Made by a program: the position numbers and the translations under genes
Notes under the pieces: generated by a model
The model's input: the letters and a program-made list of their open reading frames with translations, nothing else
What the model was told of the DNA's origin: nothing
Database searches by the model: none
In this document: positions 8,175 to 26,976 of the stretch, piece after piece
Layout of the letters: every line of letters starts with the position of its first letter
How positions within the stretch are numbered: position 1 is the stretch's first letter
DNA from: a virus
Virus record (IMG/VR): IMGVR_UViG_3300024348_001958
Location: 1-27,655 of that record
Length of the DNA stretch: 27,655 bases
Direction: 5' to 3' (one strand)

Positions 8175-8607
8175 GATCTTCTGCAAGTTGTTTGAGTTCT
8201 TTTTTTGTAGATAATCTAGCAAGTAATTCTACCTCATCTTGTTTCATATTTGGATTTATTTGCTGTAATAATTTTATAGCATTATTATTGCCTTGCTTTT
8301 TCTTAAAGCCAATCCATGCATGTCGTCTTATGTCACTATTTGCGTTATGTAGAGAACATAGTAATTGCCACTGTAGCTTAGGATGTCGTACTCCTAACTC
8401 ATTCCAGTTTTTATTATAGATTTGATTAGTCATAACAACAGCAAGTTCTTGTGCCTCTCTACTGCCTGTTACTGAACTTGCATACCTATTCAACAGCCAA
8501 AAGTTTACACCTTTTTTCTGTTCGTCTGTAAGTTCGTCCCAAACACCTTTGGCGTTGCTGTCTAAACATGCTAGTACATCTTTTACTGGAAATGCTTGCT
8601 GTGCCAT
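8152..8607 (-). CDS. Helical protein of unknown function
   Basis: 151 residues. The start at 8607 is well marked by GGAGGA about ten bases upstream, lying within the end of kdsB. The protein is largely helical (VKDVLACLDSNAKGVWDEL, EQKKGVNFWLLNRYASSV, LQWQLLCSLHNANSDIRRHA) and ends with a charged region (KKELKQLAEDHEITIKL). No enzyme motif, membrane segment or metal site is visible. It overlaps both kdsB and the zinc-finger gene, marking where the Kdo cassette runs into a block of conserved phage genes. I cannot name its function. Confidence 0.7.
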   Translation of the reverse strand: MAQQAFPVKDVLACLDSNAKGVWDELTDEQKKGVNFWLLNRYASSVTGSREAQELAVVMTNQIYNKNWNELGVRHPKLQWQLLCSLHNANSDIRRHAWIGFKKKQGNNNAIKLLQQINPNMKQDEVELLARLSTKKELKQLAEDHEITIKL

Positions 8608-9278
8608 TCTTCTACATCCTCCGGAGAATTTATCTCTACTCCATTATATTGTACACTCAAAACTCCTATTTGCCAACCGTTTTTTAACCATCGGAGTTGT
8701 TCTAATTTTTCTACTTCTTCTTCTTGGCTAATTTCTAATCCACTATACATTTCTAACGAATTGCGCTTGTATCCATATATTCCTAAATGCCAATCACCGT
8801 ATCCGGTCATGCCTCTACCAAACCATAAAGCCTGATCTCCTGCACGTACCATCTTAACTGAATTAGGATCTTGTTGTTTTTCAACTGGCATATCTGTAAA
8901 CACTGTTGTTACGGAATAGTGTTTTAGGTGCCAAAGTACTTGATCAATCATTGCAATGCTTACATCGGGCATGTCTCCCTGAACATTAATAAACTGATTA
9001 TATTGATTTAACTTATCCCAGTTTGCAACAGCGCCGGCAACTCTTTCAGTGCCGTTTGCATATGATGCAACACTTTCTTCTTCAATCCAACACTTGCCCG
9101 GACCAAACATATTATATATCCGCATATCATCAGTAAGTACATACGTTGGTATCTTAGACGCTATACAAGCGTCATACACACGTTTTATCATAGGAACACT
9201 ATCCAACATACATAACGGCTTACCTTCAAAGCGTGTGCTACCGTAACGTGCAGGTATTAGTATCGCAGTATCATTCAT
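8583..9278 (-). CDS. kdsB: 3-deoxy-manno-octulosonate cytidylyltransferase (CMP-Kdo synthetase)
   Basis: 231 residues, slightly shorter than the usual 245-250. The enzyme activates Kdo with CTP to CMP-Kdo, the donor for Kdo transferases that build LPS inner core or capsule linkers. The N-terminal signature ILIPARYGSTRFEGKPL (6-22) is the family's nucleotide-binding loop; YVLTDD, NGTERVAGA (75-83) and FINVQGDMPDV (96-106) follow in the expected order, with the usual GDEP changed to GDMP. The ending (INSPEDVEEW) matches the TPEDLE of bacterial KdsB. ATG at 9278 is preceded by AAAGGAAATAAC and shares ATGA with the upstream radical SAM fragment. With kdsA close by, this makes a phage Kdo cassette. 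A CMP-nonulosonic acid synthetase of other specificity cannot be excluded. Confidence 0.92.
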   Translation of the reverse strand: MNDTAILIPARYGSTRFEGKPLCMLDSVPMIKRVYDACIASKIPTYVLTDDMRIYNMFGPGKCWIEEESVASYANGTERVAGAVANWDKLNQYNQFINVQGDMPDVSIAMIDQVLWHLKHYSVTTVFTDMPVEKQQDPNSVKMVRAGDQALWFGRGMTGYGDWHLGIYGYKRNSLEMYSGLEISQEEEVEKLEQLRWLKNGWQIGVLSVQYNGVEINSPEDVEEWHSKHFQ

Positions 9279-9556
9279 GTTATTTCCTTTACATTTTTAC
9301 CACTACAGTATATGTTACATATATCGCAACCTATACCTTTAGACAAATTATCGTAAAAGTGTACCCATTCAGAAGATTGGGTTACTTCTTCTACATTTGT
9401 TATTTCACTTAACTTAAACTTTTCTTGTACTAGATCTTTCATATCACTTTCAAACAAGTCAGGTTTATCTGCCCAGCAACAAGGCAAAATGTAACCTCTA
9501 GCAGTATGACCTAATTCATGGTCCGAGTTAAGGCATTTTGGGAATATGGGTTTCAT
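9275..9556 (-). CDS. Radical SAM auxiliary cysteine-rich (SPASM-like) C-terminal part
   Basis: 93 residues with six cysteines arranged as in the C-terminal auxiliary cluster region of SPASM radical SAM enzymes: C8 (PKCLN), C26 and C27 (ARGYILPCCWAD), and C77-x2-C80-x3-C84 (GCDICNIYC). Such regions bind extra iron-sulfur clusters. It begins with ATG at 9556 inside the last 29 bases of the radical SAM core gene, in the +1 frame relative to it, with AAGAGAT upstream as a possible ribosome site. It is therefore either a separately translated subunit or the displaced C-terminus of a gene broken by a frameshift. Its stop shares ATGA with the kdsB start. Confidence 0.8.
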   Translation of the reverse strand: MKPIFPKCLNSDHELGHTARGYILPCCWADKPDLFESDMKDLVQEKFKLSEITNVEEVTQSSEWVHFYDNLSKGIGCDICNIYCSGKNVKEIT

Positions 9557-10157
9557 AATCTCTTGCTATAAAATTGTTAGTTGGTTTATATCTATCGTCT
9601 TTCATAAATCTACTTGATATTACTTGTTCAAAAATTATACCAAGTGATTCTGCTATTTCTTTACAATCGTTAACGTGTTCCTCATTATATTTAAAAGTAA
9701 TCATTCTCCAGGTAGTGTTTAATCCCATTTGAACACATAACTTCATTGCTTCAAATAATTCATTACCTTTTTGATTAACTCTATATATGTGACTTTCTTC
9801 AGGATACCCATCTAAGCCAAATATCCAACGTGCATTAGGATTTGAGTTGAACGCTTTTTTGTACCATGTTATTTTTTTACCAGTTGCCGCATTATGTACT
9901 TCACATGGTATATTTCTTTCATAATTAATTTTTAAGAAGTCTATAAACCATTTATTCATAACAGGATCTGATATATTACCACAAAAGTTTATATAGTCAA
10001 AATAAGATATAATTTTTTTATATTCTGATATAGTCATGTCATGCCCGGGCACACGATAACCATTGTGGGTGTACCACTTGCGTGTACACCTTGGACAAGC
10101 CAATGTGCATTTATTACTAATGTCTAAATTAATTGCCGGAATAATGAAGCCCCACAA
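9528..10157 (-). CDS. Radical SAM enzyme, core domain
   Basis: 209 residues. The N-terminus has the radical SAM cluster motif CTLACPRC (C17-x3-C21-x2-C24), which binds a 4Fe-4S cluster and S-adenosylmethionine to generate a 5'-deoxyadenosyl radical. Further TIM-barrel strands follow: YINFCGNISDP, IPCEVHNAATG, ARWIFGLDG and TTWRMITFKYNEEH. An in-frame TAG lies just upstream (positions 10169-10167), so the only usual initiation codon is TTG at 10157, with GAG before it; it lies within the last 29 bases of kdsA. The frame ends at a TAA shortly after the SPASM-like part begins in another frame. Position between kdsA and kdsB suggests it modifies a sugar or glycan, but the substrate is unknown. 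Confidence 0.85.
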   Translation of the reverse strand: MWGFIIPAINLDISNKCTLACPRCTRKWYTHNGYRVPGHDMTISEYKKIISYFDYINFCGNISDPVMNKWFIDFLKINYERNIPCEVHNAATGKKITWYKKAFNSNPNARWIFGLDGYPEESHIYRVNQKGNELFEAMKLCVQMGLNTTWRMITFKYNEEHVNDCKEIAESLGIIFEQVISSRFMKDDRYKPTNNFIARDYETHIPKMP

Positions 10158-10905
10158 TATCTCGAACTACAGTTTCAAAGTCTTCTAGCTTTAACATATT
10201 GGGACCATCACTAGGTGCATTGTCAGGATCAGCATGAACTTCTATAAAGAAATTCCTAATCCCCAAAGCACTAGCTGCCCTACATAAACCAGGAACGTAA
10301 TTCCTATTGCCGCCGCTACTGCCTCCAAGAGCACCTGGTTTCTGTACTGCGTGTGTGGCATCAAGTACCACAGGGGTATTATAATTACTAAGCATGTAAT
10401 CCAAGCCAGTAAAGTCAACAACAAGGGTATTGTATCCAAAACTTGTTCCTCTCTCCGTTATCCAAACTTCTTTGGCACCTTCTGTCTTTGACAGTATACC
10501 CTTCATGTCCCAGGGTGCAAGGAACTGGCCTTTCTTAATATTTACTATTTTATCTGTAGCACATACTGCTTTTAGTAGATCAGTTTGTCTACACAAGAAT
10601 GCAGGAATCTGATAGACATCAACTGCATACTTAAATTCTCTTTCAATACGTGCAACCTGCACATGATCATGCACATCAGTTAGTGTCTTTACACCTAACG
10701 TATCCTTTAGTGCTAAGAAGTCGTTGAGTGTTGCATTCATTCCAACACCGCGCTCTCCTTGTAAACTACTACGATTAGCTTTGTCATAACTTGCTTTAAA
10801 GTAATAGTCAATGCCATACTTGTCGCACACACGTTTACACTCTTTAGCAATTTTTGAGCTCTGTGCTAGTCCTTCATGTTGACATGGTCCTGCTATAATT
10901 CTCAA
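10129..10905 (-). CDS. kdsA: 3-deoxy-8-phosphooctulonate synthase (Kdo-8-phosphate synthase)
   Basis: 258 residues from a TTG start at 10905. This start is chosen because GGAGG lies nine bases upstream and the codon forms a TTGA overlap with the cupin stop; an ATG at 10932 would add nine basic residues. The enzyme condenses phosphoenolpyruvate and arabinose-5-phosphate to Kdo-8-phosphate. Family motifs in order: IIAGPCQHEG (3-12), FKASYDKANRSS, TLTDVHD, IPAFLCRQTDLL, NIKKGQFLAPWDM, ERGTSFGYNTLVVDF, LDATHAVQKPG and EVHADPDNAPSDGPNML. The Cys in AGPC, with the His, Glu and Asp of the later motifs, fits the metal-dependent class of the enzyme. The isomerase and phosphatase of the pathway (KdsD, KdsC) are not in the window and would have to come from the host. 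Confidence 0.95.
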   Translation of the reverse strand: MRIIAGPCQHEGLAQSSKIAKECKRVCDKYGIDYYFKASYDKANRSSLQGERGVGMNATLNDFLALKDTLGVKTLTDVHDHVQVARIEREFKYAVDVYQIPAFLCRQTDLLKAVCATDKIVNIKKGQFLAPWDMKGILSKTEGAKEVWITERGTSFGYNTLVVDFTGLDYMLSNYNTPVVLDATHAVQKPGALGGSSGGNRNYVPGLCRAASALGIRNFFIEVHADPDNAPSDGPNMLKLEDFETVVRDIVGLHYSGN

Positions 10906-11228
10906 TGGTTTCTTCCTCCGTCGAATACACATACAAAGTATGCGCCGTGTGGTCCTGCATGTACACGATGGAATACTCCATCTTCAATTAAAACTACATC
11001 GCCTTCTACAAATGAAATAGAGCTTTTATCTAATTCCATTTTGCCGCTACCTTTAATAAAATAATAAACTTCTTCTTGTCCGGCATGCGAATGGCCGCTT
11101 GTACTCATAGATGGTTTTAAATCTGTACTACTTACAATAAGATTTTTTAATGCTGTATTATCTTTGACAATATATCTTTCATCTTCTTTTACAATATTGC
11201 CGCCAATGTCACTGTTATTATACTTCAT
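10902..11228 (-). CDS. Cupin-domain protein
   Basis: 108 residues, one cupin barrel. Motif 1 appears as SGHSHAGQEEVYYFIKGSG (44-62) with ligands His46, His48 and Glu52 or Glu53; motif 2 as GDVVLIEDGVFHRVHAG (76-92) with His87. These residues bind a divalent metal. Small single-domain cupins of this type act as sugar isomerases, epimerases or dioxygenases, or only bind sugars. Start ATG at 11228 has a strong AAGGAG site. The stop overlaps the TTG start of kdsA as TTGA, so it is translationally coupled to Kdo synthesis and may act on a sugar of the same pathway, for example supplying a pentose or hexose phosphate. That last point is inference. Confidence 0.85.
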   Translation of the reverse strand: MKYNNSDIGGNIVKEDERYIVKDNTALKNLIVSSTDLKPSMSTSGHSHAGQEEVYYFIKGSGKMELDKSSISFVEGDVVLIEDGVFHRVHAGPHGAYFVCVFDGGRNH

Positions 11229-13376: not shown

Positions 13377-13721
13377 TTATACTTCTGTACCGCTAGTACG
13401 TCTTACAATATCATTATGATTAAATTCTGCCCAATATAATTCAAAAGCAACACCATCTTCAAGTCCTTCAAATTGATGTACTTTGCCCGGTTTAACTTGT
13501 GTAAAATCGCCTGCTTCTAAAATAGTTTCATCAAGCAGTCCTTGATCGTCTTGCCAAACACGAACAATCATCTTACCCGATTCAACAAAAAATCCATTCC
13601 ATTTATATTGGTGCTCATGCTCAGAACATTTATATCCCGCTTTAAATTCAATACGATGAAACTCTAATACACCGTTTGCGTGAATCAATTCTGTCTGACC
13701 CCAAATTTTTCCTGCCTTCAT
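13377..13721 (-). CDS. Cupin-domain protein
   Basis: 114 residues forming a single cupin barrel: YKCSEHEHQYKWNGFFVESG (30-49) supplies His35 and His37 as metal ligands, and GDFTQVKPGKVHQFEGLEDG provides the second motif with its His. Such proteins bind or isomerise sugars or small acids. ATG at 13721 has a strong AAGGAGTAA ribosome site. The C-terminus ends in VRRTSGTEV. I cannot assign a substrate; the gene lies in a run of small metabolic genes between uvsW and the Kdo cassette. Confidence 0.82.
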   Translation of the reverse strand: MKAGKIWGQTELIHANGVLEFHRIEFKAGYKCSEHEHQYKWNGFFVESGKMIVRVWQDDQGLLDETILEAGDFTQVKPGKVHQFEGLEDGVAFELYWAEFNHNDIVRRTSGTEV

Positions 13722-14570: not shown

Positions 14571-15077
14571 TTAAAACAACAGCGAATAATCTATAATTTC
14601 ACATTGTCTGCTAATATCCTTAACAAAAAATGCACACAATGGGTTATCTCCTTGTGTTATTGGTACACTTAATAATTGTCCGTTTTTCATTTTAGGAAAA
14701 TACCATTTTACATCTGTATAAAAATTAGTTATTTTAATATCTCCATATTCTAATTTAAAACTACTTAACGGGTTAAAAAGAAACGCTTCAAATCCTCTAT
14801 CATTAATACTAGTCAATGGCAGTATTTCTAAGTCGGCTCCTACTGACGAATCACCTACAGCAATATGCCAATCTACCGGCATAGTAATTTCTTGTCCTGC
14901 AATTTCTAATACCATAGCTGGCGAGCTAAATGATTCTAGGAAAATTAAAGGCACAAAGAAAAAATCTGGTTCTTTTGGATCTGAGTTATCTAAAACTGCA
15001 AATCTTACATCGTCGTCTATTTGTTCTGGTAAGTCTTCTAAACTAAAGGACTTATCTTCTAAAGTTAATATTCTCAT
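14571..15077 (-). CDS. Conserved-looking protein of unknown function downstream of uvsW
   Basis: 168 residues from ATG at 15077, which shares TAATG with the uvsW stop; the longer frame would begin at TTG 15086. The protein is rich in beta-strand patterns and hydrophobic (FFFVPLIFLESFSSPAMVLE, EITMPVDWHIAVGD, FEAFLFNPLSSFKLEYGDI). A PVDWHIAVGDSSVGADLEIL segment is the most distinctive. No enzyme motif is recognised. Coupling to uvsW suggests co-expression with the recombination genes, but the hydrophobic, strand-rich sequence does not look like a DNA-processing protein. Confidence 0.7.
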   Translation of the reverse strand: MRILTLEDKSFSLEDLPEQIDDDVRFAVLDNSDPKEPDFFFVPLIFLESFSSPAMVLEIAGQEITMPVDWHIAVGDSSVGADLEILPLTSINDRGFEAFLFNPLSSFKLEYGDIKITNFYTDVKWYFPKMKNGQLLSVPITQGDNPLCAFFVKDISRQCEIIDYSLLF

Positions 15078-16543
15078 TAATTCCAATCCACCTTTTCGAT
15101 AGTAAAGGGATACTCTGCTTCTTTGTAAAATTTCTTACGCTGAGTTAGATGTCGCTTCGCATACTTACACGTTGATGTAAGATCCCATATTTGCACGAAG
15201 TCTTTGTCTTTTGCCTTTCTTACGCCTCTACCAATTGATTGAATAACACGAACAAAAGATTTGCCCGGTTCAATAAGAACAAGATTAAAAATACGGGGAA
15301 TGTTAAGACCCACAGCAGCAACTCCGTAAGTTGCAATAATAACTTCATTATCGCCATCACGTATTGTGTCATATGTTTCTTTTCGGTCCTTAACTTTAAC
15401 ACTCCCGCTTACAAATGTACTTCCTGGTATTAGTTCTGCAAGCATTTCTCCTGCACTAATCCTGTCCACAAGTATAAGTGTGTTACCCGAATCTTTAATT
15501 GTTGTTAGTAACTTGCCTATGTATTCTAATCTTGATTGATTAGATGTTAAATATTTTAATTCTTCTTGGTAACTACTGTGCGCCACTGTGTCAATTAATT
15601 GTACTACGTTAACATGACATTGCGATAACACACCTTTATCTTGTAATTCTTTTGCACTAATTTGTCCTATAACTGGTCCAAGACTAGCGTGAATACTTTC
15701 GAATTCAAACTTCTCTCTAGGCACTGTGCCAGTTAGGCCCCAGCGAATTGGGGCATTACGTAGGTTGCGAGTAAGCAGATTTTTAAGAACTTCTGCTTTC
15801 GCCATGTGTACTTCGTCGACAATAATAGTGCTCACGCCTTCTAAGAATTCAGCGAGCGAAAGTACCGCCGCGCCGTCTTTGTGCTTCTTGTCAAGTATAT
15901 TTAAACTTTGCCAAGTGCAAATAGTATGAGTCTTACCTAATTGCTTTCTGTCGCCGAAGTACACACCTACGTCTAATCCACAATTAACATAGTCTTCTTC
16001 AGTCTGCTCAACCAAGGACTTATTAGGCACAATTACAATGCTACGCCCGTAAGGTTCACTGAGATGTGATAACGTAGCTGTTGTAATTGTTTTGCCTGCG
16101 CCTGTAGCAATTTGCTGAAGACTTTGTGGATTAGCAATAAAGTTGTTGATTGCTTCAACTTGGTAATCTCGCAGAATAATTTCTTCACCTTCTGCAGGGT
16201 GTCCTTCCGGCCACGCAACGCCTTGGTCTGCCCAATAGCGTTCTGTAACTGGGTTGAATTCTAATTTAATTGGATGTCGTTTATCTTCAATGTCTACTAT
16301 TTGAACATTATTTTTTTGTAAAACTTGACTAACAATGTCAAGATGATTAACATAACCAGTGCCGCCAATGCCAAAAAAAGCAACCTTTCCATCCCAACGA
16401 CCAAGTTTATATTGTGGCATGTATCTTGCGTAAGGCACTTCAAACTTGAGAGCGTTCGCAAGCTTCCTTCGTACGTCAACCTCTAATCCTTCCAATTTTA
16501 TATTAACTTCATCTTCAATAATGAGTCTGCAACTACCTGCCAT
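15077..16543 (-). CDS. uvsW: RNA-DNA and DNA helicase (T4 UvsW)
   Basis: 488 residues (T4 UvsW 503). It unwinds branched DNA and R-loops, switching origin-dependent to recombination-dependent replication. The N-terminal DNA-binding domain (RYMPQYKLGRWDGKVAFFG, 40-58) is typical of UvsW. SF2 motifs: Q-like RDYQVEAI (125-132), Walker A ATGAGKT (146-152), DEVH (243-246), motif III GLTGTVPR (269-276), and motif VI QSIGRGVRKA near residue 450. ATG at 16543 overlaps the upstream gene by 11 bases, with GAGG before it. The unit is probably driven from the promoter at 17715-17743, with a possible internal promoter nearer by. Confidence 0.95.
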   Translation of the reverse strand: MAGSCRLIIEDEVNIKLEGLEVDVRRKLANALKFEVPYARYMPQYKLGRWDGKVAFFGIGGTGYVNHLDIVSQVLQKNNVQIVDIEDKRHPIKLEFNPVTERYWADQGVAWPEGHPAEGEEIILRDYQVEAINNFIANPQSLQQIATGAGKTITTATLSHLSEPYGRSIVIVPNKSLVEQTEEDYVNCGLDVGVYFGDRKQLGKTHTICTWQSLNILDKKHKDGAAVLSLAEFLEGVSTIIVDEVHMAKAEVLKNLLTRNLRNAPIRWGLTGTVPREKFEFESIHASLGPVIGQISAKELQDKGVLSQCHVNVVQLIDTVAHSSYQEELKYLTSNQSRLEYIGKLLTTIKDSGNTLILVDRISAGEMLAELIPGSTFVSGSVKVKDRKETYDTIRDGDNEVIIATYGVAAVGLNIPRIFNLVLIEPGKSFVRVIQSIGRGVRKAKDKDFVQIWDLTSTCKYAKRHLTQRKKFYKEAEYPFTIEKVDWN

Positions 16544-17714: not shown

Positions 17715-17743
17715 AGTATAACTTAGAATAACTCAGATGTCAA
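17715..17743 (-). promoter_or_regulatory. Near-consensus sigma70 promoter for the uvsW unit
   Basis: The minus strand has TTGACA (17743-17738), exactly 17 bases, then TATACT (17720-17715): 11 of 12 consensus bases. Six bases (TAGTGT) separate the -10 box from the ATG at 17708, the same geometry as the primase promoter, so +1 again falls on the A of the ATG. The promoter overlaps the end of the last glycan-island gene, separating that island from the recombination unit. Confidence 0.78.
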
Positions 17744-18565
17744 GTTTTTTAATGGTAACCCTTGTGATATTTCTTCGATAGTATATTCTGTATGTGCATA
17801 GTCATTAAGCCATTGTTGTCTATCTGGCATCAAAGGAGATTCGATATCGTGTAAGAAGTCTATATCGTTGGCCACATCATAAGCAAGACTGTGAGTGCTA
17901 ACAAAAGCAGGAACGCCTTGGATGACACTATGTACCCCAGGATTACTACTGTAACTGATAGTACAATATACATCATCAAACCCCATATCAAAAGAATCAT
18001 AAGTGCCGTTAACATGTTGAGGCTCTTGTCTTGTTACGTGCCTAAGTCCACGTTCGATATGTTCTAGTCTACAACGTGGATGTGGACGAAATATAATAGG
18101 ACGTTCTGTATGTTTGCGTATTTCGTCGTATGTGTTTAAAAACCAATTACTCATTCGTGGCATGTGTTGCCACTGTAGGCTTTTATCGTGTTGACCGCAT
18201 ATTAGTATGTATTGGCCATCAGTGCGCCACGGTTTTAGAAATAGCCCAAGATCATTGCTGCGAGTATTACAAAAATCACCGGAATTAAAATAACCATCAC
18301 GATTGATTCCATTGAGCCCTACTTTCCATGTTACACCTCTATTTATTCCTCCGACTTCAAGGACTATAGTAGGCTTTTTGTTTTCCCAGACAGCTTTGTT
18401 TCTAGCCATGCGGCCGTAGAAAAGAACACTCCAAATAACATTAATGTCGGAATCGTTACTGTTATAAACAACAGTATGGCCAGCGTCCAACAGACCAGTT
18501 GCAAAAGCATCAAACACCGGTCCACTATTAAGTGCGCCATAATCTTTCCATAAACTAAATTTCAT
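17723..18565 (-). CDS. GT-B type glycosyltransferase-like protein (capsule/Kdo-transferase-like)
   Basis: 280 residues, the first of three related proteins in this island. The C-terminal half shows the shared pattern: GQYILICGQHDKSLQW (117-132), RPIIFRPHPRCRLEHI (155-170) with the His-Pro pair at 162-163, and CTISYSSNPGVHSVIQGVP (201-219), which matches the Ser/Asn-rich nucleotide-sugar loop of capsule synthesis enzymes of the KpsC/KpsS sort and other GT-B enzymes. The N-terminal half (YGALNSGPVFDAFATGLLD) fits the acceptor domain. No signal peptide or membrane segment. It overlaps the neighbouring GT-A gene by 11 bases. Donor and acceptor are unknown; CMP-Kdo is a reasonable candidate given kdsA and kdsB. 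Confidence 0.7.
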   Translation of the reverse strand: MKFSLWKDYGALNSGPVFDAFATGLLDAGHTVVYNSNDSDINVIWSVLFYGRMARNKAVWENKKPTIVLEVGGINRGVTWKVGLNGINRDGYFNSGDFCNTRSNDLGLFLKPWRTDGQYILICGQHDKSLQWQHMPRMSNWFLNTYDEIRKHTERPIIFRPHPRCRLEHIERGLRHVTRQEPQHVNGTYDSFDMGFDDVYCTISYSSNPGVHSVIQGVPAFVSTHSLAYDVANDIDFLHDIESPLMPDRQQWLNDYAHTEYTIEEISQGLPLKNLTSELF

Positions 18566-19406
18566 TCCAATATGCTTCTGTTCTATTAACCATAATGTCT
18601 TTCTTAAGACTTTTCCCTGTGTCTTTGCGTCCGCCTTTCATATGATCAATCCATTGTCCTAATGGACCGTTAATTAACGGATGTCCTCCGCCACCAGTTT
18701 TAGCAGTTTGCACATAGATATTTTCACTATAGTCATGCGCTGTTGGAAAGTCTGCTTTCATATTGTTAAGAATGTGGCCAAACACAAAACTGTCATGCCA
18801 TTCGTCTAACAAAAACATTCCGTTTTCTGCATCTTCGTACATACGTTCAAACTCTTTAAGGAACTCGTGACACACAGGATGATTTAAATTTAATCCGTAG
18901 AAGCCACACTCTGGCCATGTCTGTGATCCTTTGCCTCTGCCAACGTATGTGATCCAAGCATTACTTGGTAGCAACTCTATAAACTGCTCATATGTCCAGT
19001 CACTGTGTACATATGTGTCTGCATCCATCCACACACACCAGCTCTTAGAGCGTTGTACAGCGTCATACACAGCATAAGTTTTGTTAGCAAATCTAACTGC
19101 ATCCCATTTAAATTTCTTATGCCAGTCTCTTGGTCTACGTGCTTTAATATTGTCTGGTGGTATACCATTTGCCTTAGGTACATTGCTCCAACGTTCTTTA
19201 AATGCTACAAGTTTAGGTAGTGCTTCTTTTGCATTTAGAATTGTAATTTGTTCTGGATTAGGATTAATAGGTGTACAGTCTTCTGCGTATACTAACAATT
19301 TAATTCTATTGTCAACACGTTCTGCAAAACTATCTAAAAAACGCTGTCCGTATGTTTCTAATCCTGGTTGATGAAACGTAGTTAGTACTGTTACTTGATT
19401 GCCCAT
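18555..19406 (-). CDS. GT-A type glycosyltransferase
   Basis: 283 residues from ATG at 19406, chosen over ATG 19424 because GGAGG lies eleven bases upstream of the former. The fold is GT-A: N-terminal strand NQVTVLTTFHQPG, RIKLLVYAED, then the DxD motif in WCVWMDADTYVHSDW (123-137) that binds the metal and nucleotide sugar. ECGFYGLNLNHPVCHEFLKE and LLDEWHDSFVFGHIL follow, supplying acceptor and catalytic acidic residues. The C-terminal GGGGHPLINGPLG is glycine-rich. It lies between two GT-B genes of the island and probably adds one sugar of the same glycan. Sugar specificity cannot be read from the sequence. Confidence 0.82.
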   Translation of the reverse strand: MGNQVTVLTTFHQPGLETYGQRFLDSFAERVDNRIKLLVYAEDCTPINPNPEQITILNAKEALPKLVAFKERWSNVPKANGIPPDNIKARRPRDWHKKFKWDAVRFANKTYAVYDAVQRSKSWCVWMDADTYVHSDWTYEQFIELLPSNAWITYVGRGKGSQTWPECGFYGLNLNHPVCHEFLKEFERMYEDAENGMFLLDEWHDSFVFGHILNNMKADFPTAHDYSENIYVQTAKTGGGGHPLINGPLGQWIDHMKGGRKDTGKSLKKDIMVNRTEAYWNEI

Positions 19407-20326
19407 TTGCGTAAATGCCTCCATGCTGTTCCATCTTTTAATTCATCTAACGACCAATGCATCTGCGCCATACGTTGTATCCAAAGTTCTCTATCAAGTT
19501 CTTTAGGGTCTTCTATTTCTGCAAGAGTTTTTTGAGATACCATTGCTGCTTGACTACGCTCAGGATCAGTTACAAATAACGGTACACCTTCTATTGCAGC
19601 AACAACTCCCGGACTACTGTTATGGCTTATAACAGCATACGCTTGTTGCATATCTTGTAGTAAGTTTTCTGATGTGCTAGGTGTTACTCCGGGTAGTCTA
19701 TATCGTTGTAAAGCTCTTATATGCTGTAATTTATCTTTATCGCCTGGATGAAAGCGTACCATTATTTGTCTATCAGTATATTTTCTAAGTAACTGAATAT
19801 TTTTTACAAGCCAGGGCATAATATGTTTTCCATCCATGCTCCAGCCACCGTTACGCTGACAACATATTAAAATGTATTTGCCTGCACCTTTTTTATGTTG
19901 TTTTAAAGTAAACCCTATGTCTCTACTAATTTTTTCCCAACGTGTAGGATCCGGATTATTATTACAATATTCACCTGTAGTAGGAAACACGCCATCATAA
20001 CTGTACCTTAAATATTTTTTTGAATTGTTGTTATCGTATGCTAGGAATAAGTTTGCATCAACAATCATGCTACGTTTATGTTCTCTATTTTGTTTTTCAA
20101 ATACAGATTTGCGTAAAGTTAAATGTTTTGCTATTTTACTACCCGGATGAACAAAACCTTGTACAACAGCTACATCACATTCTACAGGATTATAATCACA
20201 GACAATTTCTCCTTTGTCTCCAGCTGCCCATACCCCTTCGATAAAATTTACAATAATTTGAGGCTTCTCTGGGTTTGTATTTCCAGGAGGTATGCCCATT
20301 AAATACGAAGCTACTTTTATAGTCAT
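19391..20326 (-). CDS. GT-B type glycosyltransferase-like protein, paralogue 2
   Basis: 311 residues. It shares with the protein at 17723-18565 the block GKYILICCQRNGGWSMDGK (149-167), a downstream helix ending in RQIMVRFHPGDKDKL (His-Pro at 193-194), and YAVISHNSSPGVVAAIEGVP (230-249). These are the nucleotide-sugar site features of the GT-B/capsule-synthesis type. The N-terminal half contains GIPPGNTNPEKPQII and NANLFLAYD-like segments. Start ATG at 20326 has AGGAAGGTAAACA upstream and shares ATGA with paralogue 3. It is the best preserved of the three in the HP and SSPG motifs. Confidence 0.7.
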   Translation of the reverse strand: MTIKVASYLMGIPPGNTNPEKPQIIVNFIEGVWAAGDKGEIVCDYNPVECDVAVVQGFVHPGSKIAKHLTLRKSVFEKQNREHKRSMIVDANLFLAYDNNNSKKYLRYSYDGVFPTTGEYCNNNPDPTRWEKISRDIGFTLKQHKKGAGKYILICCQRNGGWSMDGKHIMPWLVKNIQLLRKYTDRQIMVRFHPGDKDKLQHIRALQRYRLPGVTPSTSENLLQDMQQAYAVISHNSSPGVVAAIEGVPLFVTDPERSQAAMVSQKTLAEIEDPKELDRELWIQRMAQMHWSLDELKDGTAWRHLRKWAIK

Positions 20327-21153
20327 TGTTTACCTTCCTGTAGTATTTTCCAAGCTGTACCATCTTCCATTTCAAATTGTGTAAATTGTGCATATGATAA
20401 ATGTGTAAGGAAGCTTCTCATTTCTTCTTTGGTTGGTATCTTAGGATTCTCTATATTATCTAAATCAGTTTCGCATATAAGTTGCGCAGCGTTTGGTCCT
20501 AGCGTAATAGCAGGTTTGCCGCACATTAATGCTTCTGTAGCAGCAATACTGTTGTATGTTACTAAACAATGTACATCATCTTGAAGTGCATCTTCTATAC
20601 TCTTTGTACTAATACGTTCGCTACGTATTGGCTTCATACGTATTTCAATTGGTCGATCGGTTTTAGTTTTTAATTGTTCAACTAATTTTTCTGTCCATTC
20701 TTTTGCTGTACCTTGATTAAACATATTCATTACTTTGTCACTAGGCGGGCAAACAAGTATTTTTCTACCAGAAGTAAACGGCGTCCATAATTCTTTCCAT
20801 GTTTTTTGCAACTGTAATTCTAATCTAGCACCATCACGCGGAATAATTGTTTCCATGTTTTGTAATGCATTGTATGTTATACGGTGCCAAGTTTTATGCT
20901 TTCCATTTCCAAAGTAACCAGTATCAATTGCATAGAATGGTCTGCCTTCATTCCAACATCTTTTAATAGCTTTTTGACTTCCGCCGCCAAGCCCTCTAAT
21001 AATTAAAGTACTGTCTGTTTGTTCTTCAGTTTCCCAATTAGATTCTTCGCCACCTACACCAATCATAAAACTACGTAAGTAAGGGTCGTAATCATGCCCT
21101 TTTTTTGCGTAGTTGTTGCCGCCTGAGCTATCAATTGATGCTACTTTAGCCAT
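20323..21153 (-). CDS. GT-B type glycosyltransferase-like protein, paralogue 3, divergent
   Basis: 276 residues. It aligns with the two neighbouring GT-B proteins at GRKILVCPPSDKV, RPIEIRMKPIRSERIS and CLVTYNSIAATEALMCGKP, but the His-Pro pair of the others is replaced by Lys-Pro and the SSPG loop by NSIA. The YNSIAATEAL...GKPAITLG segment is even closer to classic capsule-export/KpsC-like or UDP-sugar GT-B loops. The N-terminus begins MAKVASIDSSGGNNYAKKGH and has a GLGGGSQKAI loop. ATG at 21153 with GAGG upstream, within the last bases of the GT-A gene region. It may have a different donor from its paralogues or have lost activity. Confidence 0.65.
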   Translation of the reverse strand: MAKVASIDSSGGNNYAKKGHDYDPYLRSFMIGVGGEESNWETEEQTDSTLIIRGLGGGSQKAIKRCWNEGRPFYAIDTGYFGNGKHKTWHRITYNALQNMETIIPRDGARLELQLQKTWKELWTPFTSGRKILVCPPSDKVMNMFNQGTAKEWTEKLVEQLKTKTDRPIEIRMKPIRSERISTKSIEDALQDDVHCLVTYNSIAATEALMCGKPAITLGPNAAQLICETDLDNIENPKIPTKEEMRSFLTHLSYAQFTQFEMEDGTAWKILQEGKQ

Positions 21154-21158
21154 ATACG

Positions 21159-21839
21159 TTATACCTCATTTTCCATCATATCAAATAATTCTGTTTTCCA
21201 TTCTGCATGAAACTCACAGTCTCTATAATTTTCAAACCACGGTCCGCCTTCTGTAAAGTGTATTAACTTTGGTTTTTTAATGTCGTCATACACACCTACT
21301 AAGTAGTTCCATGTATGATCCAGTTTACCAACTTCTTCATCTTTTAACCAACTAAATCTATGGAAGTATGCTCCATTAAGTTCTGTATCATTTACCATGT
21401 CCTGTGTAAGTCTAGCATTACTAGGGTGCGCACAATTGAACAGTACAACACTTGACCAGTTCTTACGTGGGTAGATAGTTTGCTTTTGTCCATCCATCTT
21501 CATGCCTTCTTTAGGTGTGTAATCATGTTGCACACACATAACAGCGTAGTTGTCATCTGCCTGATCAAATAGTTCTTTAATGTCTGTAGTAAGGATCATG
21601 TCACAGTCCATAAACACTGCCCAGCCTTTAAAGTTAGCAAGTTCGGGTACTAAGAAACGTGTAAAGGTAAATTCAGTGCTTGCAAGTTTGTCTGTGGGTC
21701 TAGTATACCAACCTGCATCTCGTAGCTCTTGTTGCTTTAGAGGCTGCACTTCTGCGTCTTTGCACCTAGCAATAATACTGTGCTTGCAAACTTGGTAAGC
21801 AATATCTTCTCTTGTGTCATAACCTACAAATACTTTCAT
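21159..21839 (-). CDS. GT8-like glycosyltransferase
   Basis: 226 residues from ATG at 21839, which shares TGATG with the upstream stop. Layout of a GT-A/GT8-type enzyme: KVFVGYDTREDIAYQVCKHS (2-21), FTFTRFLVPELANFKGWAV (57-75), the DxD in VFMDCDMIL (75-83), NWSSVVLFNCAHP, HTWNYLVGVYDD, and a C-terminal IHFTEGGPWFENYRDCE that matches the HxxG-type metal-ligand region. Retaining GT8 enzymes transfer glucose, galactose or related sugars to LPS. Similar stand-alone proteins occur in marine T4-like phages. The sugar is not determined. Confidence 0.85.
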   Translation of the reverse strand: MKVFVGYDTREDIAYQVCKHSIIARCKDAEVQPLKQQELRDAGWYTRPTDKLASTEFTFTRFLVPELANFKGWAVFMDCDMILTTDIKELFDQADDNYAVMCVQHDYTPKEGMKMDGQKQTIYPRKNWSSVVLFNCAHPSNARLTQDMVNDTELNGAYFHRFSWLKDEEVGKLDHTWNYLVGVYDDIKKPKLIHFTEGGPWFENYRDCEFHAEWKTELFDMMENEV

Positions 21840-22609
21840 CAATCTCTTCTTTCTATATCATCTTCGACACATTCTTCACCCCATTGTATTTCGAGTATAT
21901 GTGCGTTTACTGTTCCAAAATTACTTGGCTTGTGCCAAACTTCTTTATTAATTTCATATGGTAATCGGTGAGGCTCTAACTGTACTGAGGTAGTGTTGCC
22001 ATGCCATTCTGTTGTCATGTCTACAGTTCCTTCTAGTACAATCCATTGTTCTGATCGTTTAAAGTGTTTTTGATCACTTAATGACTTGCCTGGATAAATT
22101 ACAAGTTCTTTAACTTTATAACCTTGTTCGGGTTTATGATCTAACACACGCCAGTAACCCCACTGACGTTCTGTTTTTTGTGTTTTCCATTCATCCAATA
22201 TCCAACTACTACTATTTGCTTTATTCTCTCCGCCTACTCCAAATACAAATTCTACATCAGAGTGATCACCATATATTTTATATTCGGGCGTAGTAGTATC
22301 TGTTCTATCTCCGCCATTAGCAAATATTATTTTACCAATATTTGTTGCCATTGTTTTATATATGGCTCCGCATGCACTATTATCGCTATCGTCAAAACAA
22401 ATAACATTGTCTACACACTTTAATTCTTTTATAAGTGCAATACGCTCGTTTAGTGGCATAAACGGTCTGCCTTTTTTTCTAGTTAGCCATTCGTCTGAAT
22501 TAACACCAACAACTAACTTATTTCCTAATTTTTTTGCTGCCTTAAAATAGGCAATGTGTCCGCTATGAAGTGGATCAAATCCACCAGTGACTAGTACAAC
22601 CTTTTCCAT
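21839..22609 (-). CDS. Fusion of HIGH-type cytidylyltransferase and type II phosphomannose isomerase (cupin) domains
   Basis: 256 residues with two domains. Residues 1-145 are a nucleotidyltransferase of the RfaE2/TagD type: VLVTGGFDPLHSGHIAYF (5-22) with the HxGH motif (15-18), VVGVNSDEWLTRKKGRPF (33-50), and GGENKANSSSWIL in place of the usual ...TSSSI loop. Residues 148-256 are like the C-terminal cupin of type II mannose-6-phosphate isomerases: WGYWRVLDH, KHFKRSEQWIVLEGTV (metal-binding His182), and the closing GEECVEDDIERRD. The pairing suggests that a sugar or alditol phosphate is activated with CTP or ATP and a linked step is done by the cupin. Substrate could be a heptose, glycerol or ribitol phosphate. 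A 31-base gap precedes it, with no clear promoter. Confidence 0.85.
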   Translation of the reverse strand: MEKVVLVTGGFDPLHSGHIAYFKAAKKLGNKLVVGVNSDEWLTRKKGRPFMPLNERIALIKELKCVDNVICFDDSDNSACGAIYKTMATNIGKIIFANGGDRTDTTTPEYKIYGDHSDVEFVFGVGGENKANSSSWILDEWKTQKTERQWGYWRVLDHKPEQGYKVKELVIYPGKSLSDQKHFKRSEQWIVLEGTVDMTTEWHGNTTSVQLEPHRLPYEINKEVWHKPSNFGTVNAHILEIQWGEECVEDDIERRD

Positions 22610-22640: not shown

Positions 22641-23330
22641 TTAAAAACGTGGTTCGGCAGCGGATAGTCTTTCTTCTAAACTGTAAGACTTAGGAACTTT
22701 CGTTACAGTTCTTTTAGGCCACATGTAACGTAATTTAGATTTGTAATGCGTAATTTTTGCATTTTTTTGTGGCTGTTTAAAATAAAAATTATTATAGATT
22801 GTACATGGAAAAATTTTAACAGTCATATTATGTAATTTTCTTTTACGCAAATAATCAACATTATTTAAAGCAAAAAGTTTATTCAACTCTTTTTGATCAC
22901 TAATGCCTGTGCTTACATTATTAATCCAAGTATTCATAAAGTTAATACTTGCAGGTGTCTTTTTAACAAATACTATTCCTGCATTAATTGGGTCATCTCT
23001 TTCATTTGACTTAGGTTTACGCATAGTTACACCAAAGTCCCAATTATCTTCTAATATTTCGTCTATACGACTCCACATTATTGCATCAGCATCAATCCAT
23101 ACAATTACATCGTTATCGTTAGCATTATTTAATGCATCTAATATCATTGCAGGCTTACAGGGTATTTTAGCACCTATACTATCGCTAACCTTGCCTTGAA
23201 ACGGTGTTCCGTAACCCAATCCACCTAAGTCGTAAACAGTAGTTTCGTACCCTAATGTTTTTGCAGAACGATATGCTACATCTACCATATCTTTAAAATT
23301 CTTATCAGCTGCTGTAATTACTTTAATCAT
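22641..23330 (-). CDS. GT-A type glycosyltransferase (nucleotide-diphospho-sugar transferase family)
   Basis: 229 residues. N-terminal strand MIKVITAADKNFKDMVDVAY, a substrate loop, then the DxD motif in VIVWIDADAIMWSRI (75-89). DPINAGIVFVKKTPASINFM and DQKELNKLF follow, which are typical of the family of nucleotide-diphospho-sugar transferases that includes many small virus and plant enzymes. The C-terminus KITHYKSKLR gives a late His. The start shares ATGA with the asparagine-synthetase-like gene. It likely adds one sugar of the island's glycan; specificity unknown. Confidence 0.82.
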   Translation of the reverse strand: MIKVITAADKNFKDMVDVAYRSAKTLGYETTVYDLGGLGYGTPFQGKVSDSIGAKIPCKPAMILDALNNANDNDVIVWIDADAIMWSRIDEILEDNWDFGVTMRKPKSNERDDPINAGIVFVKKTPASINFMNTWINNVSTGISDQKELNKLFALNNVDYLRKRKLHNMTVKIFPCTIYNNFYFKQPQKNAKITHYKSKLRYMWPKRTVTKVPKSYSLEERLSAAEPRF

Positions 23331-24655
23331 AATACTTGTTTTACTTTTTTACCTTTAACAACAACATTGAATCCTCGTTTCTCTTCTTCAAAAGGAAAAT
23401 TATTACGTGTTAGATATTCTGCAAGACAACTTTTGTATTTGCTGTTTTTTAACTCAGGAGTTAACCATAAAAATTCTTGCACTAACTGTCTATCTAAAAA
23501 AGGATAACGTGTTTCAATTCCATAGTGTCCTGCAATATATTCTTCTTTATTAAGATATTGTATCTGTGTACCATCCCAAAAACTATGCCATGGCCAAAAA
23601 CCCTCTAATGTATCAGGAAATTTACCACCAAACTGACTGTGTTTGTATATACGTTTTCCGTTAAATCCATAGTCACTAATAATTTCATCAGCACCTTGAC
23701 CGCTAAAATATATTCTTTGATTATTTGTGTTAGCTCTGTTGCATATAGTTGCTAAACCTTGTACTGCTTGGTCGCCCTTTATGTTGTAATTTCTATGTCC
23801 ATCATCATATATGAAATCTTCACATTGGACAAGTTCTGCTTTGCGTTTATTAAAATCTGTAACACTTAGTGTTATACTTTCTGTGCTTGGTAGTATGTCA
23901 AAACGTGCTTTCATTATGTCCGGATTTTCATTGTTAACAATACTGTAGCCCGTAGCTACAACACCTTGCTTGTGTAATTCGCAAGCAATGGCGCCGCTAT
24001 CAAATCCGCTACTAAGTCCTAAGAACATTCCGTGTGTAGTATTTTGTGTGCGCTTCTTTATACTGTTACTAAATGCTTCACACCAATTATCAAAACTATT
24101 ATTTTTTTGTGCAATATCAAATTTAAAATTATTGTATTGTCTTAATATTTCTAATGTGTCAAAGTTATATACTTGCGTTTTGTTTGCATATAATTTTTTA
24201 CCGTTTGTAAATCCCAATCCTTGTAGTTGACTATTATAAGATGCTACACAAAACTTATCTCCCTTAAATTCATACCAAAGAGGTTTGCATGCAAAAGTGT
24301 CTGTACTAATAATTAATTTACGTAGTTTATAGTCTATTAAAAAGATTGCATATTCGCCATCTAACATATGACAAAATTTTTCTCCATATGTATTATATAA
24401 ATCTACAATACATTCGCCGTCGCTTGAATAGTTTCCAAATTCTTTGTAGTTATATATTTCGCCGTTAAAGACAGCAACAACATTATGTTTCTTAATAGGT
24501 TGAGGAGTCACTTCACCTGTAATATGCAACAAGTTGTGCAGATACCAAACACCTTCTTCGCACTGTTCTACTGTGGTTAGATCAGGGCCGCGGTGCTGGC
24601 ACTTTTCATTTGATATTTTTGGGTTAATATAATTAGTAGCTGCAAATCCACACAT
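23327..24655 (-). CDS. Asparagine synthetase-like amidotransferase (glutamine-hydrolysing)
   Basis: 442 residues, about 100 fewer than bacterial AsnB. It begins MCGFAATN, so that after Met removal the catalytic N-terminal Cys of class II glutamine amidotransferases is exposed; HRGPD (21-25) and NGEIYNY (64-70) bind glutamine. The C-terminal synthetase domain has a PP-loop LSSGFDSG at 214-221 (usually LSGGLDSS), IYFSGQGADEI and the YPFLDRQLVQEFLWL region. In glycan loci such enzymes amidate sugar acids (WbpS-type) as well as making asparagine. The altered PP-loop and the setting favour a sugar-acid amidation or related reaction, but asparagine synthesis is not excluded. Encoded one base after the methyltransferase, with no ribosome site of its own. 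Confidence 0.88.
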   Translation of the reverse strand: MCGFAATNYINPKISNEKCQHRGPDLTTVEQCEEGVWYLHNLLHITGEVTPQPIKKHNVVAVFNGEIYNYKEFGNYSSDGECIVDLYNTYGEKFCHMLDGEYAIFLIDYKLRKLIISTDTFACKPLWYEFKGDKFCVASYNSQLQGLGFTNGKKLYANKTQVYNFDTLEILRQYNNFKFDIAQKNNSFDNWCEAFSNSIKKRTQNTTHGMFLGLSSGFDSGAIACELHKQGVVATGYSIVNNENPDIMKARFDILPSTESITLSVTDFNKRKAELVQCEDFIYDDGHRNYNIKGDQAVQGLATICNRANTNNQRIYFSGQGADEIISDYGFNGKRIYKHSQFGGKFPDTLEGFWPWHSFWDGTQIQYLNKEEYIAGHYGIETRYPFLDRQLVQEFLWLTPELKNSKYKSCLAEYLTRNNFPFEEEKRGFNVVVKGKKVKQVL

Positions 24656-24656
24656 G

Positions 24657-25295
24657 CTATTTTTTCAATCTGTTTTTATCTTTTTTATGTTTACCGTCAA
24701 TATACATTCCGCCAATAGGTCCTGGTAAAACATGTATCTTAGAATGTAATTTATCTGCATCTATAAAGCCATTGCCTATCTTTCTTACAGCGTATAAACG
24801 CCAACGAGAGAGTTCTATAGTTCCTAAAAATTCGTAATCTGAATTCTCTGTAATGTTGTGCCAGAAAGGTAAATCATAATAATATTGACAATGGCCGCGT
24901 TTTGTAAATTCAACATCTGGACCGATATGTATTGCTACACCGCCAATTTTCAAACTGTTGTGTACATTTAAAAATGCAGTGTGTTGTGCTTCATATGGTT
25001 CTACATGTTCTATAGTTCCTGCATTAGTTATTACATCAAAATATTCTTTGTATTCAGTAAAGTCTTCTAGCTTCGATAGATCCTTTACTAATGCTCCGTC
25101 TAAGCCGTTTAAGTCAACAGAAGTATGTTCGTATCCTAATCTTGTAAAATATGTCTTTCCTGTAGTTTCGGGTATTTGCTTGTCTGGACGTATAACTTGA
25201 TTCCCAAGTTCTAACATCTTTAATCCATTTACTGATTTATATACCTGGCCTATATGATCGTTCATCCAGCGTAAGTACGAAGTTCTGTAACCCAT
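24657..25295 (-). CDS. SAM-dependent methyltransferase-like protein
   Basis: 212 residues. A degenerate Rossmann pattern is visible: LKMLELGNQVIRP (motif I with the glycines partly lost), YEHTSVDLNGLDGALVKDL (acidic residue after the second strand), FDVITNAGTIEHVEP (motif IV region) and LKIGGVAIHIGPDV (motif VI). The C-terminus is basic (KHKKDKNRLKK). These features fit class I methyltransferases acting on small molecules or sugars. It lies four bases downstream of another methyltransferase and just upstream of the asparagine-synthetase-like gene. The substrate is probably a glycan sugar by context. Confidence 0.75.
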   Translation of the reverse strand: MGYRTSYLRWMNDHIGQVYKSVNGLKMLELGNQVIRPDKQIPETTGKTYFTRLGYEHTSVDLNGLDGALVKDLSKLEDFTEYKEYFDVITNAGTIEHVEPYEAQHTAFLNVHNSLKIGGVAIHIGPDVEFTKRGHCQYYYDLPFWHNITENSDYEFLGTIELSRWRLYAVRKIGNGFIDADKLHSKIHVLPGPIGGMYIDGKHKKDKNRLKK

Positions 25296-25299
25296 CCTG

Positions 25300-25884
25300 C
25301 TATTCCTTTCTTATAAAAAATAAACCACTTTCATTAATATGCTTACCATTTTCATTGTTCTTTTTTGTGCCAGTACATAATTTTCTTATTTCTGTTGAAT
25401 CTTCTTCCATCCACGTAAAGCCACGATCTGCTAAATGGGTAATCCAATATTCTTGCCACTGACAGTTTACATGATGATGACCGCGTTGTCCAGGAACGCC
25501 GTGCGTCATAAAGATATATTTGCCACAAGTTAATGTTTCTAATAAGTTATTAATATACTCTTCACTTACATGCTCTACTACCTCAATGCAATTTACCATA
25601 TCTATTTCTATAGTATAACTACTTTCTGTAAGGTCAACTTTAGTCGTTGGATATACTGCATTGTCTACATTCTTTTGTAGGCCTTCAATAGCAACAGAAG
25701 TTAATCCTTGCTCAGCGAACCATTTTGAGTGATGACCGTATCCACTGCCTACATCTAGTACAGAGCTAATGTTATATTTTTTTATTATATATGTCCACGC
25801 TTCAGGAGCAAACGTGTGTCTGTTTAATTCTACATTATTACCACCTAAATGTGGTTTAGTATCATCTAGTACTACTTCTGCCAT
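25300..25884 (-). CDS. SAM-dependent methyltransferase
   Basis: 194 residues. A clear class I fold: motif I SSVLDVGSGYGHHSKWF (40-56), SVAIEGLQKNV, the acidic strand IEIDMVNCIEVVEHVSEEYI (like UbiG/methyltransferase type 11), and KYIFMTHGVPGQRGHHHVNC with a His-rich loop, which may contribute to substrate binding. The C-terminus ends with HINESGLFFIRKE. AGGAG precedes the ATG at 25884. A 25-base gap with repeat elements separates it from the GT29-like gene, so a promoter may lie there. Sugar O-methylation is the inferred role. Confidence 0.85.
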   Translation of the reverse strand: MAEVVLDDTKPHLGGNNVELNRHTFAPEAWTYIIKKYNISSVLDVGSGYGHHSKWFAEQGLTSVAIEGLQKNVDNAVYPTTKVDLTESSYTIEIDMVNCIEVVEHVSEEYINNLLETLTCGKYIFMTHGVPGQRGHHHVNCQWQEYWITHLADRGFTWMEEDSTEIRKLCTGTKKNNENGKHINESGLFFIRKE

Positions 25885-25906: not shown

Positions 25907-25922
25907 TTATCACGATTGATAA
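25907..25922. repeat. Inverted repeat flanked by direct repeats between GT29-like and methyltransferase genes
   Basis: TTATCA-CGAT-TGATAA (plus strand) is a perfect inverted repeat with six-base arms and a four-base loop. It is flanked by two copies of TAATAGTTA (25901-25909 and 25920-25928). It covers the GT29-like stop codon. No T-run follows on the minus strand, so it does not look like a terminator; an operator or a chance AT-rich symmetry are the options. Confidence 0.35.
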
Positions 25923-26521
25923 TAGTTAAAATTATTTCTTAATGGAAGTATTTGTTCTAAGAAAAACTTTTTTTCTTTATCCCAATTATGTCCTTTTTTG
26001 CGTTCGTCTTTTTTACGTTTTCTAGCATAATTGTAAAATGTGTGGGTTTGTTTAAAATCAAAGCCAAATATATTTACTTGTTTTGGTTTAACATATGTAA
26101 GAAACCATATAAATGCAAGACCTATTGAAGGATTTGCATTTTTTTCAAATTTACCTAAATCAAATAATCTTTGTAAAACAAAATTAGGAATAGTATATAC
26201 AGATTGATCGACAGTACTGTGTTCATTTAAATAAATCTGCATCCAATTTACATTTTCTTTGTAGGCAAATAAATCTACAGAATTTGCCCAGTGATCATTA
26301 TTATATACTACCCAATCAGTTTTTGACCCATGTGTAATAGTATTTTTATGATCTACGCCTAAGTTAAATCTTATAACAATATCATTTGTATCTATAAGAT
26401 TACCGTAGCCTCCTGGAGAATTAGTGCTGTTATATAATGAACGTGCATTACCTATAACAGCAATTTTTTTATTATAGAATAGTCGAAATAATTTTTTATG
26501 ATGTATGTCTATATATGACAT
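25910..26521 (-). CDS. GT29 (sialyltransferase)-like glycosyltransferase
   Basis: 203 residues. Three parts match the sialyl motifs of family GT29: a motif-L-like block at 19-54 (KIAVIGNARSLYN, then GNLIDTNDIVIRFNLG), in which GN and the IRFN end are diagnostic; a motif-S-like block at 130-155 (NPSIGLAFIWF ... KQVNIFGFD); and an H-x4-E motif VS at His178-Glu183 (HNWDKE). GT29 enzymes transfer sialic acid from CMP-sialic acid. This version is much shorter than animal ones and has no signal anchor, so it is cytoplasmic. Since the phage carries kdsA and kdsB, CMP-Kdo is a plausible donor. It starts in a TAATG overlap with the uvsY-like gene. Confidence 0.78.
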   Translation of the reverse strand: MSYIDIHHKKLFRLFYNKKIAVIGNARSLYNSTNSPGGYGNLIDTNDIVIRFNLGVDHKNTITHGSKTDWVVYNNDHWANSVDLFAYKENVNWMQIYLNEHSTVDQSVYTIPNFVLQRLFDLGKFEKNANPSIGLAFIWFLTYVKPKQVNIFGFDFKQTHTFYNYARKRKKDERKKGHNWDKEKKFFLEQILPLRNNFNYYQS

Positions 26522-26976
26522 TATAACGTAGCATCTTCCATGCCCGCTACTCTAAGTTTTACAACATTAGTAATTTGCCATTGCTTTTGATCAAGTGCTT
26601 TGAGTACACCTAACCACTTGTTACGCATTAATGCAAACTCGTTTATAATTTTTTCGTAATCAACAACATCTGCTTCGCCGTCTACATATTTTTCTACGTC
26701 GCGACTAGATAATGCTCGCTGGTAATTTTCAAGATATTTTTTAAAAAATGAGCTACGCAACCTACGTAGCTCAATATTTAAGTAATTTAGAATTGCTTCT
26801 AATTCTTGAAGTTGATTAAAACGCTGTTCAACAATTCCTGGCATCATTGCAGCCGACTTTTCAACATTACCTACAAGCTTGCATTCCGCTTTTGCTTGCA
26901 CAAGCTCTGTTTCAAAGTATGCTACTGCATCTGGAATTTTTGAAATATCACGTGATATTTCTGAATACCAACCCAT
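26521..26976 (-). CDS. uvsY: Recombination mediator protein UvsY-like
   Basis: 151 residues (T4 UvsY 137). It is almost wholly helical, with charged coiled-coil-like stretches (QRFNQLQELEAILNYLNIEL, RRLRSSFFKKYLENYQRAL) and a conserved-looking C-terminus (LKALDQKQWQITNVVKLRVA, then GMEDA). UvsY loads the UvsX recombinase onto gp32-covered single strands. Direct residue identity with T4 UvsY is low by eye; the assignment rests on size, helical nature, the ending that I associate with UvsY-like proteins of marine phages, and position two genes after uvsX. ATG at 26976, with only a weak GGATG ahead. An unrelated helical phage protein remains possible. Confidence 0.6.
   Translation of the reverse strand: MGWYSEISRDISKIPDAVAYFETELVQAKAECKLVGNVEKSAAMMPGIVEQRFNQLQELEAILNYLNIELRRLRSSFFKKYLENYQRALSSRDVEKYVDGEADVVDYEKIINEFALMRNKWLGVLKALDQKQWQITNVVKLRVAGMEDATL

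Follow-up and report, generated by a model that had tools for sequence, protein, structure and literature searches.

Characterised animal enzymes of glycosyltransferase family GT29 use CMP-sialic acid, and for plant GALT29A transfer of galactose from UDP-Gal has been reported, so membership of the family alone does not fix the donor. GALT29A is listed as GT29 (PMC11288761). The first-pass annotation had noted that plant GT29 members are proposed to act on Kdo-type sugars in pectin; a precedent is Arabidopsis RCKT1/MGP2, a GT29 protein needed for Kdo on RG-II and proposed, from mutant wall analysis, to be the RG-II CMP-Kdo transferase (PMC11288761). Bacterial GT29-like proteins of marine bacteria have the sialylmotifs L, S, III and VS of the family and are reported to carry no transmembrane segment and no motif cysteines (PMC5811610). 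Kdo is transferred with retention of configuration by KpsC (GT107), WbbB (GT99) and KrkA (GT140), which use a CMP-beta-Kdo donor and define a QxxxD motif (PMC9587256, PMC12887879). Viruses are known to carry kdsA and kdsB as auxiliary metabolic genes (PMC10653327, PMC5332604), and a coral virome paper contains a single GT29 count for viruses (PMC11656804). GT29 proteins of uncultured Caudovirales phages are already present in public tables, so phage members of the family are no novelty in themselves; one of them, A0A6J5NLG3, shares its family name, fold and tailed-phage origin with the protein described here but is 492 residues long. A search of open-licence papers found no account of phage GT29 function.

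The window is the whole 27,655-nucleotide stretch of DNA that was analysed, and it comes from a marine T4-like phage. It carries a GT29 gene directly after a uvsY-like gene, with which it shares a 1-base overlap, at the start of a block of glycan genes that extends to a uvsW-like helicase (Table 1). The helicase was given its name from its position and length. A compact 203-residue GT29 protein with L-, S- and VS-like blocks had been proposed at this site. The reading frame and motifs were confirmed, and Pfam and profile searches agree with comparison of an AlphaFold2 model to GT29 structures. The Pfam profile PF00777 covers residues 20-187 with 40.2 bits (cut-off 23) and is matched by 51 of 52 phage relatives at E <=0.01. 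A PDB search with the single sequence returned no match even at E 10; the 52-row phage profile was needed and returned eight matches, all GT29 sialyltransferases, with pig ST3Gal1 as the best (4.8e-10). No NCBIfam model matched the protein. By its profile matches and predicted fold, the product is a genuine GT29 family member, and it is compact and probably soluble.

Table 1. Features of the glycan island and the Kdo-synthesis genes in the window
Feature	Coordinates	Strand	Evidence and remarks
kdsB-like CMP-Kdo synthetase	8583..9278	-	PF02348 E 1.8e-22
kdsA, Kdo-8-phosphate synthase	10129..10932	-	NF003543 335.9 bits (cut-off 242); TIGR01362 320 bits (cut-off 314)
Cupin, 114 aa	13377..13721	-	PF07883
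UvsW-like helicase, downstream island flank	15077..16543	-	phrog_16 DNA helicase E 2.7e-77
Paralogue of 19391-20326, keeps HP motif and QxxxD-type Gln	17723..18565	-	tblastn and alignment A3
Conserved island protein, no Pfam match	18555..19424	-	homologues with GT29 and with kdsB; DADT motif by eye
GT-B protein, fold of retaining Kdo transferases	19391..20326	-	AF2 pLDDT 95.1
Paralogue of 19391-20326, KP replaces HP, no motif Gln	20323..21153	-	tblastn and alignment
GT8-family glycosyltransferase	21159..21842	-	PF01501 E 7.6e-7; adjoins GT29 in G031-like phages also
HldE/TagD-like nucleotidyltransferase fused to mannose-6-phosphate-isomerase-type cupin	21839..22609	-	PF01467 and PF01050
Nucleotide-diphospho-sugar transferase	22641..23330	-	PF03407 E 7.8e-8
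Asparagine-synthase-like amidotransferase	23327..24655	-	PF13537, PF00733
Methyltransferase-like protein	24657..25295	-	PF08241 weak, 0.0079
Methyltransferase-like protein directly after GT29	25300..25884	-	PF13489 E 3.1e-5
GT29 (sialyltransferase-family) glycosyltransferase	25910..26521	-	203 aa, ATG start; PF00777 E 3.4e-10
uvsY-like recombination mediator, upstream flank of glycan island	26521..26976	-	phrog_231 (PHROG 231) E 2.6e-16

The core of sialylmotif L is IAVIGNARSL...GNLIDTNDIVIRFNLG, in which G24 (52/52), N25 (49/52), R51 (52/52) and N53 (46/52) recur across the relatives. Motif S reads NPSIGLAF...VNIFGFDF (family pattern PSTG...YGF), with P131 in 46 of the 52 sequences and S/T132, G134, G153 and F154 in every one; position 133 is Ile in the window protein and Thr in most relatives. 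The VS-type HxxxxE consists of the catalytic His (H178) and E183. Motif III is without the usual His and reads TFYN/TFYE, and position 161 within it aligns as T or S in 52/52 sequences. This motif is short and variable, and family membership therefore rests on the profile and the fold. Eleven columns are invariant in the 52-member alignment A2 (G24, I43, D44, R51, G65, G134, G153-D155, H178 and E183). The residues that we take to line the CMP site of ST3Gal1 are kept as N25, N53, S132, G134, G153 and H178, a correspondence drawn from sequence rather than superposition. The comparison revealed no residue that distinguishes Kdo from sialic acid.

The AlphaFold2 model of the GT29 protein (pLDDT 90.3, pTM 0.89) aligns with ST3Gal1 (2wnf) in VIA-align with a Z of 15.1, an rmsd of 3.0 and 176 of 203 residues matched, spanning residues 2-203. 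Other GT29 structures score Z 12-14 and the GT42 enzyme CstII scores 12.9. Rows 1-23 of a Foldseek search are all GT29, followed by bacterial sialyltransferases that include GT42 CstII. HPPK and SteA also appeared as fold matches and were set aside because they are weaker than every GT29 and GT42 row. The model thus predicts a GT-A-like GT29 fold. Pig ST3Gal1 and human ST6GalNAc2, ST8SiaIII and ST6Gal1 have in common with the phage protein the profile match, the fold of the whole chain, the L and S cores and HxxxxE; the phage protein differs from these animal sialyltransferases in its missing motif III His and is 15-21% identical to them in structural alignments. The loss of this His, and a chain of 203 residues compared to about 270-300 for the solved GT29 catalytic domains, would suit a decayed or regulatory GT29-fold protein without transferase activity. 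Such a protein is very improbable, because H178 and E183 are present in 52/52 relatives that span 22-90% identity, the frames are open throughout, and individual phages retain two or three copies.

In IMG/VR, a scan with the GT29 protein returned 22 relatives, of which one is identical to it and three share 90% identity, and an alignment-based scan found at least 89 viral contigs with GT29 relatives, 80 of which were kept. Four distant phages (G031, G043, G048 and G061), with a gp41 helicase only 25-30% identical to that of the window, have two to three GT29 copies each, two of them side by side and adjoining GT8, and also encode homologues of the island proteins of the window. In the G031-like loci L137, L135, L121 and L127, the tandem GT29 pair follows GT8 and a third GT29 lies several kb away. 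A tblastn search of phage GenBank with GT29 gave no match, so named isolates provide no host. The closest cellular matches are from Ruegeria, Methylobrevis, Pseudovibrio and Mesorhizobium and are about 30% identical. GT29 neighbourhoods inspected by eye in Ruegeria, Ensifer and Mesorhizobium gave no donor clue. The Ensifer sesbaniae gene (L398, around 8000) adjoins endolysin-like genes, as judged by eye, and thus probably sits in a prophage.

The order of the island is kept in four other contigs (G004, G023, G084 and G025). In G025 the place of kdsAB is taken by sugar-nucleotide dehydrogenase-like and epimerase-like genes (by eye), with GT29 still present. The conserved protein at 18555-19424 is probably a GT-A transferase. 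Outside the island, a NodU/TobZ-type carbamoyltransferase (2603-4108) lies between the gp41-like helicase and primase genes and recurs in 26 of 80 phage kdsB loci, and a peptide-deformylase-like gene (6982-7479, by eye) lies in the replication region.

The Kdo-synthesis genes lie beyond the uvsW-like helicase, about 15-16.6 kb from GT29, close to the 15 kb first estimated. Both kdsA and kdsB had been named at the outset. The kdsA gene exceeds the cut-offs of two NCBIfam equivalog models. The kdsB call is less firm: the best NCBIfam models for this gene are KdsB (E 8e-48), but it falls under every KdsB cut-off; the pseudaminate model PseF reaches only 0.004. A cupin of 114 residues (13377-13721) accompanies these genes: 67 of the 80 kdsB loci from phages have it, as do 38 of the 39 loci of >=14 kb. 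Its median identity of 90% across the kdsB loci makes it more conserved than KdsA or KdsB, and it adjoins kdsA in G031, G043, G048 and G061. As an idea only, this cupin might fill a gap in Kdo synthesis, for example as the arabinose-5-phosphate isomerase. A radical-SAM-like protein is encoded between kdsA and kdsB (9275-10157) and has homologues in only 3 of 80 kdsB loci.

Co-occurrence of GT29 with Kdo synthesis was examined in contigs that are nearly all fragments from uncultured phages, where a gene missing from the contig is not necessarily missing from the phage. Of 50 GT29 contigs (2.1 Mb in all), seven carry kdsA and four a PF02348 cytidylyltransferase, all among the longer contigs; four (G023, G031, G048 and G051, all >=46 kb) have both kdsA and kdsB, and three more have kdsA. 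In the opposite direction, PF00777 detects GT29 in at least one of 50 kdsB contigs, a lower bound because G123 was picked up by the A2 profile and not by the six-frame search. In this direction the proposed association is weak. A control set of 44 contigs was picked by their helicase; these contigs are related to one another, which makes the p values descriptive. Within it, kdsA is present in 5/8 GT29-positive and 11/36 GT29-negative contigs (p 0.12). In the G031-like clade the values are 5/8 and 0/10 (p 0.007), evidence that is not independent given the relatedness of the contigs. In the phage clade of the window itself, 11 of 26 control contigs have kdsA and none of the 26 has a convincing GT29. 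Four long contigs that are not known to be complete genomes, G034 (110 kb), G044 (137 kb), G055 (160 kb) and G123 (195 kb), have GT29 and no kdsA. G119 (201 kb, circular, with a 123-bp terminal repeat) is probably a complete genome and encodes three GT29 proteins as well as KdsA and the cupin linked to kdsA (L195/L405/L407); it contains no kdsB or PF02348 gene, so kdsB would have to be supplied by the host. The link between GT29 and kdsAB across phages is weak.

These distributions bear on a donor that is independent of phage kdsA and kdsB, namely a host-made CMP-nonulosonate of the sialic, pseudaminic or legionaminic type. This donor is unlikely but has several observations in its favor: some phages have GT29 but no kdsA/kdsB, one of them (L017) with GT29 as a lone gene close to replication genes, near the DNA polymerase, GT29 genes are also present in alphaproteobacterial contigs, and the characterised animal enzymes take CMP-sialic acid. 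Gram-negative hosts that require Kdo already make CMP-Kdo, however, and the lone GT29 cases therefore favor sialic acid no more than Kdo. The first-pass annotation saw no sialic acid synthesis gene, and the window ORFs scanned indeed include no neuB-like gene. NeuB over cut-off is likewise found in 0/50 GT29 contigs, which counts against a sialic-type donor, and GT29 phages that lack kdsB and carry a neuA/neuB pair were not seen among them. A single NeuB fragment in G029 (1.9e-5, under cut-off) was considered as a sign of phage-made sialic acid and set aside.

Three paralogues at 17723-21153, which cross-match in tblastn at about 25-34%, have no Pfam match. The predicted structure of the middle protein (19391-20326) has Kdo transferases (KpsC, WbbB and KrkA) as its fold ranks 1-15, with Z 14.5-12.3, compared to 10.9 for the next fold. 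Its family profile gave no sequence match in the PDB, solved Kdo transferases included. In the family alignment, the Kdo-carboxylate-binding Gln of the QxxxD motif is present in 40/53 sequences and the HP CMP-binding motif is conserved at H193 (41/53) and P194 (44/53). The nucleophile Asp at +4 of QxxxD aligns in only 4/53, a count from sequence alignment rather than superposition. The phage proteins thus have in common with KpsC, WbbB and KrkA the fold over most of the chain, and differ in mostly lacking the QxxxD Asp and in having no detectable sequence similarity. Because the nucleophile is absent from most members, the family is not filed as GT99, GT107 or GT140. We consider the 17723-21153 paralogues a new, widespread, unannotated phage glycosyltransferase family.

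The 19391-20326 family is present in 16/16 kdsA-positive control contigs and in 10/28 others; put the other way, kdsA is found in 16 of 26 control contigs with the family and in none of 18 without it (p 1.5e-5, related contigs). Among the 39 kdsB loci of >=14 kb, 25 have this family and none has GT29. The family tracks kdsA much better than GT29 does, and its three members in the window are probably likelier main users of phage CMP-Kdo than GT29. Taken further, CMP-Kdo would be used by these proteins only and GT29 would be a passenger of the island with an unrelated donor, in the way that UDP-Gal is reported as the donor of plant GALT29A. The fold scores to KpsC, WbbB and KrkA, the three retaining Kdo transferases of known structure, and the presence of the family in every kdsA-positive control, most of which have no GT29, are consistent with this arrangement. 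It is nevertheless improbable, given the rarity of the QxxxD Asp in the neighbours, their lack of sequence matches to the solved enzymes, and the CMP-site residues that GT29 presumably keeps from ST3Gal1.

The preferred explanation is that GT29 is an inverting glycosyltransferase that works within a phage-encoded glycan-building island, with CMP-Kdo as its most likely donor; taken as a whole, this explanation has about an even chance of being correct. GT29 would cap a short sugar chain, started by GT8, the 18555-19424 protein and the PF03407 protein, with an ulosonic acid that it takes from a CMP donor. Its CMP-Kdo would be made by KdsA and KdsB of the phage or drawn from the pool in the host, and host CMP-sialic-type donors are possible. 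The three neighbours with the KpsC/WbbB/KrkA fold would probably spend the bulk of the CMP-Kdo, and the GT29 reaction would be an optional addition. Its product would probably be a modified host surface glycan that masks the phage receptor, or a virion glycan, as suggested by the gene company of GT29. RCKT1/MGP2 is a parallel, a GT29 protein that likewise operates where Kdo is produced and no synthesis of sialic acid is apparent; it is a plant enzyme and is likened to the phage protein by family and setting. The proposal of one pathway that includes GT29 and kdsA/kdsB thus holds in part. The whole cassette most likely serves to make and use CMP-Kdo, and the most likely role of GT29 is to add an ulosonic acid; that GT29 itself belongs to the kdsAB pathway is no more than plausible, given their weak link. 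For the identity of its donor, CMP-Kdo is the best single guess, right in about half of the outcomes we envisage. A Kdo route specific to marine phages is a tentative proposal: it would consist of synthesis by KdsA/KdsB, a deeply divergent family of Kdo transferases in which the CMP-binding parts remain but the retaining nucleophile is lost, so that its members may be inverting, and a GT29 with CMP-Kdo as donor.

A Kdo donor for GT29 would be a first among phage members of the family. If either GT29 or its neighbours use CMP-Kdo, the range of the GT29 family would cover both sialic acid and Kdo donors, in viruses and not in plants alone. If true, the explanation would also provide small enzymes for Kdo chemistry. 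Use of CMP-Kdo by GT29 or its neighbours would also explain why marine phages commonly carry kdsA and kdsB: the genes would feed phage transferases and not boost host LPS generally. A KpsC/WbbB/KrkA-like family that lacks the QxxxD Asp offers a way to test how the retaining mechanism arose.
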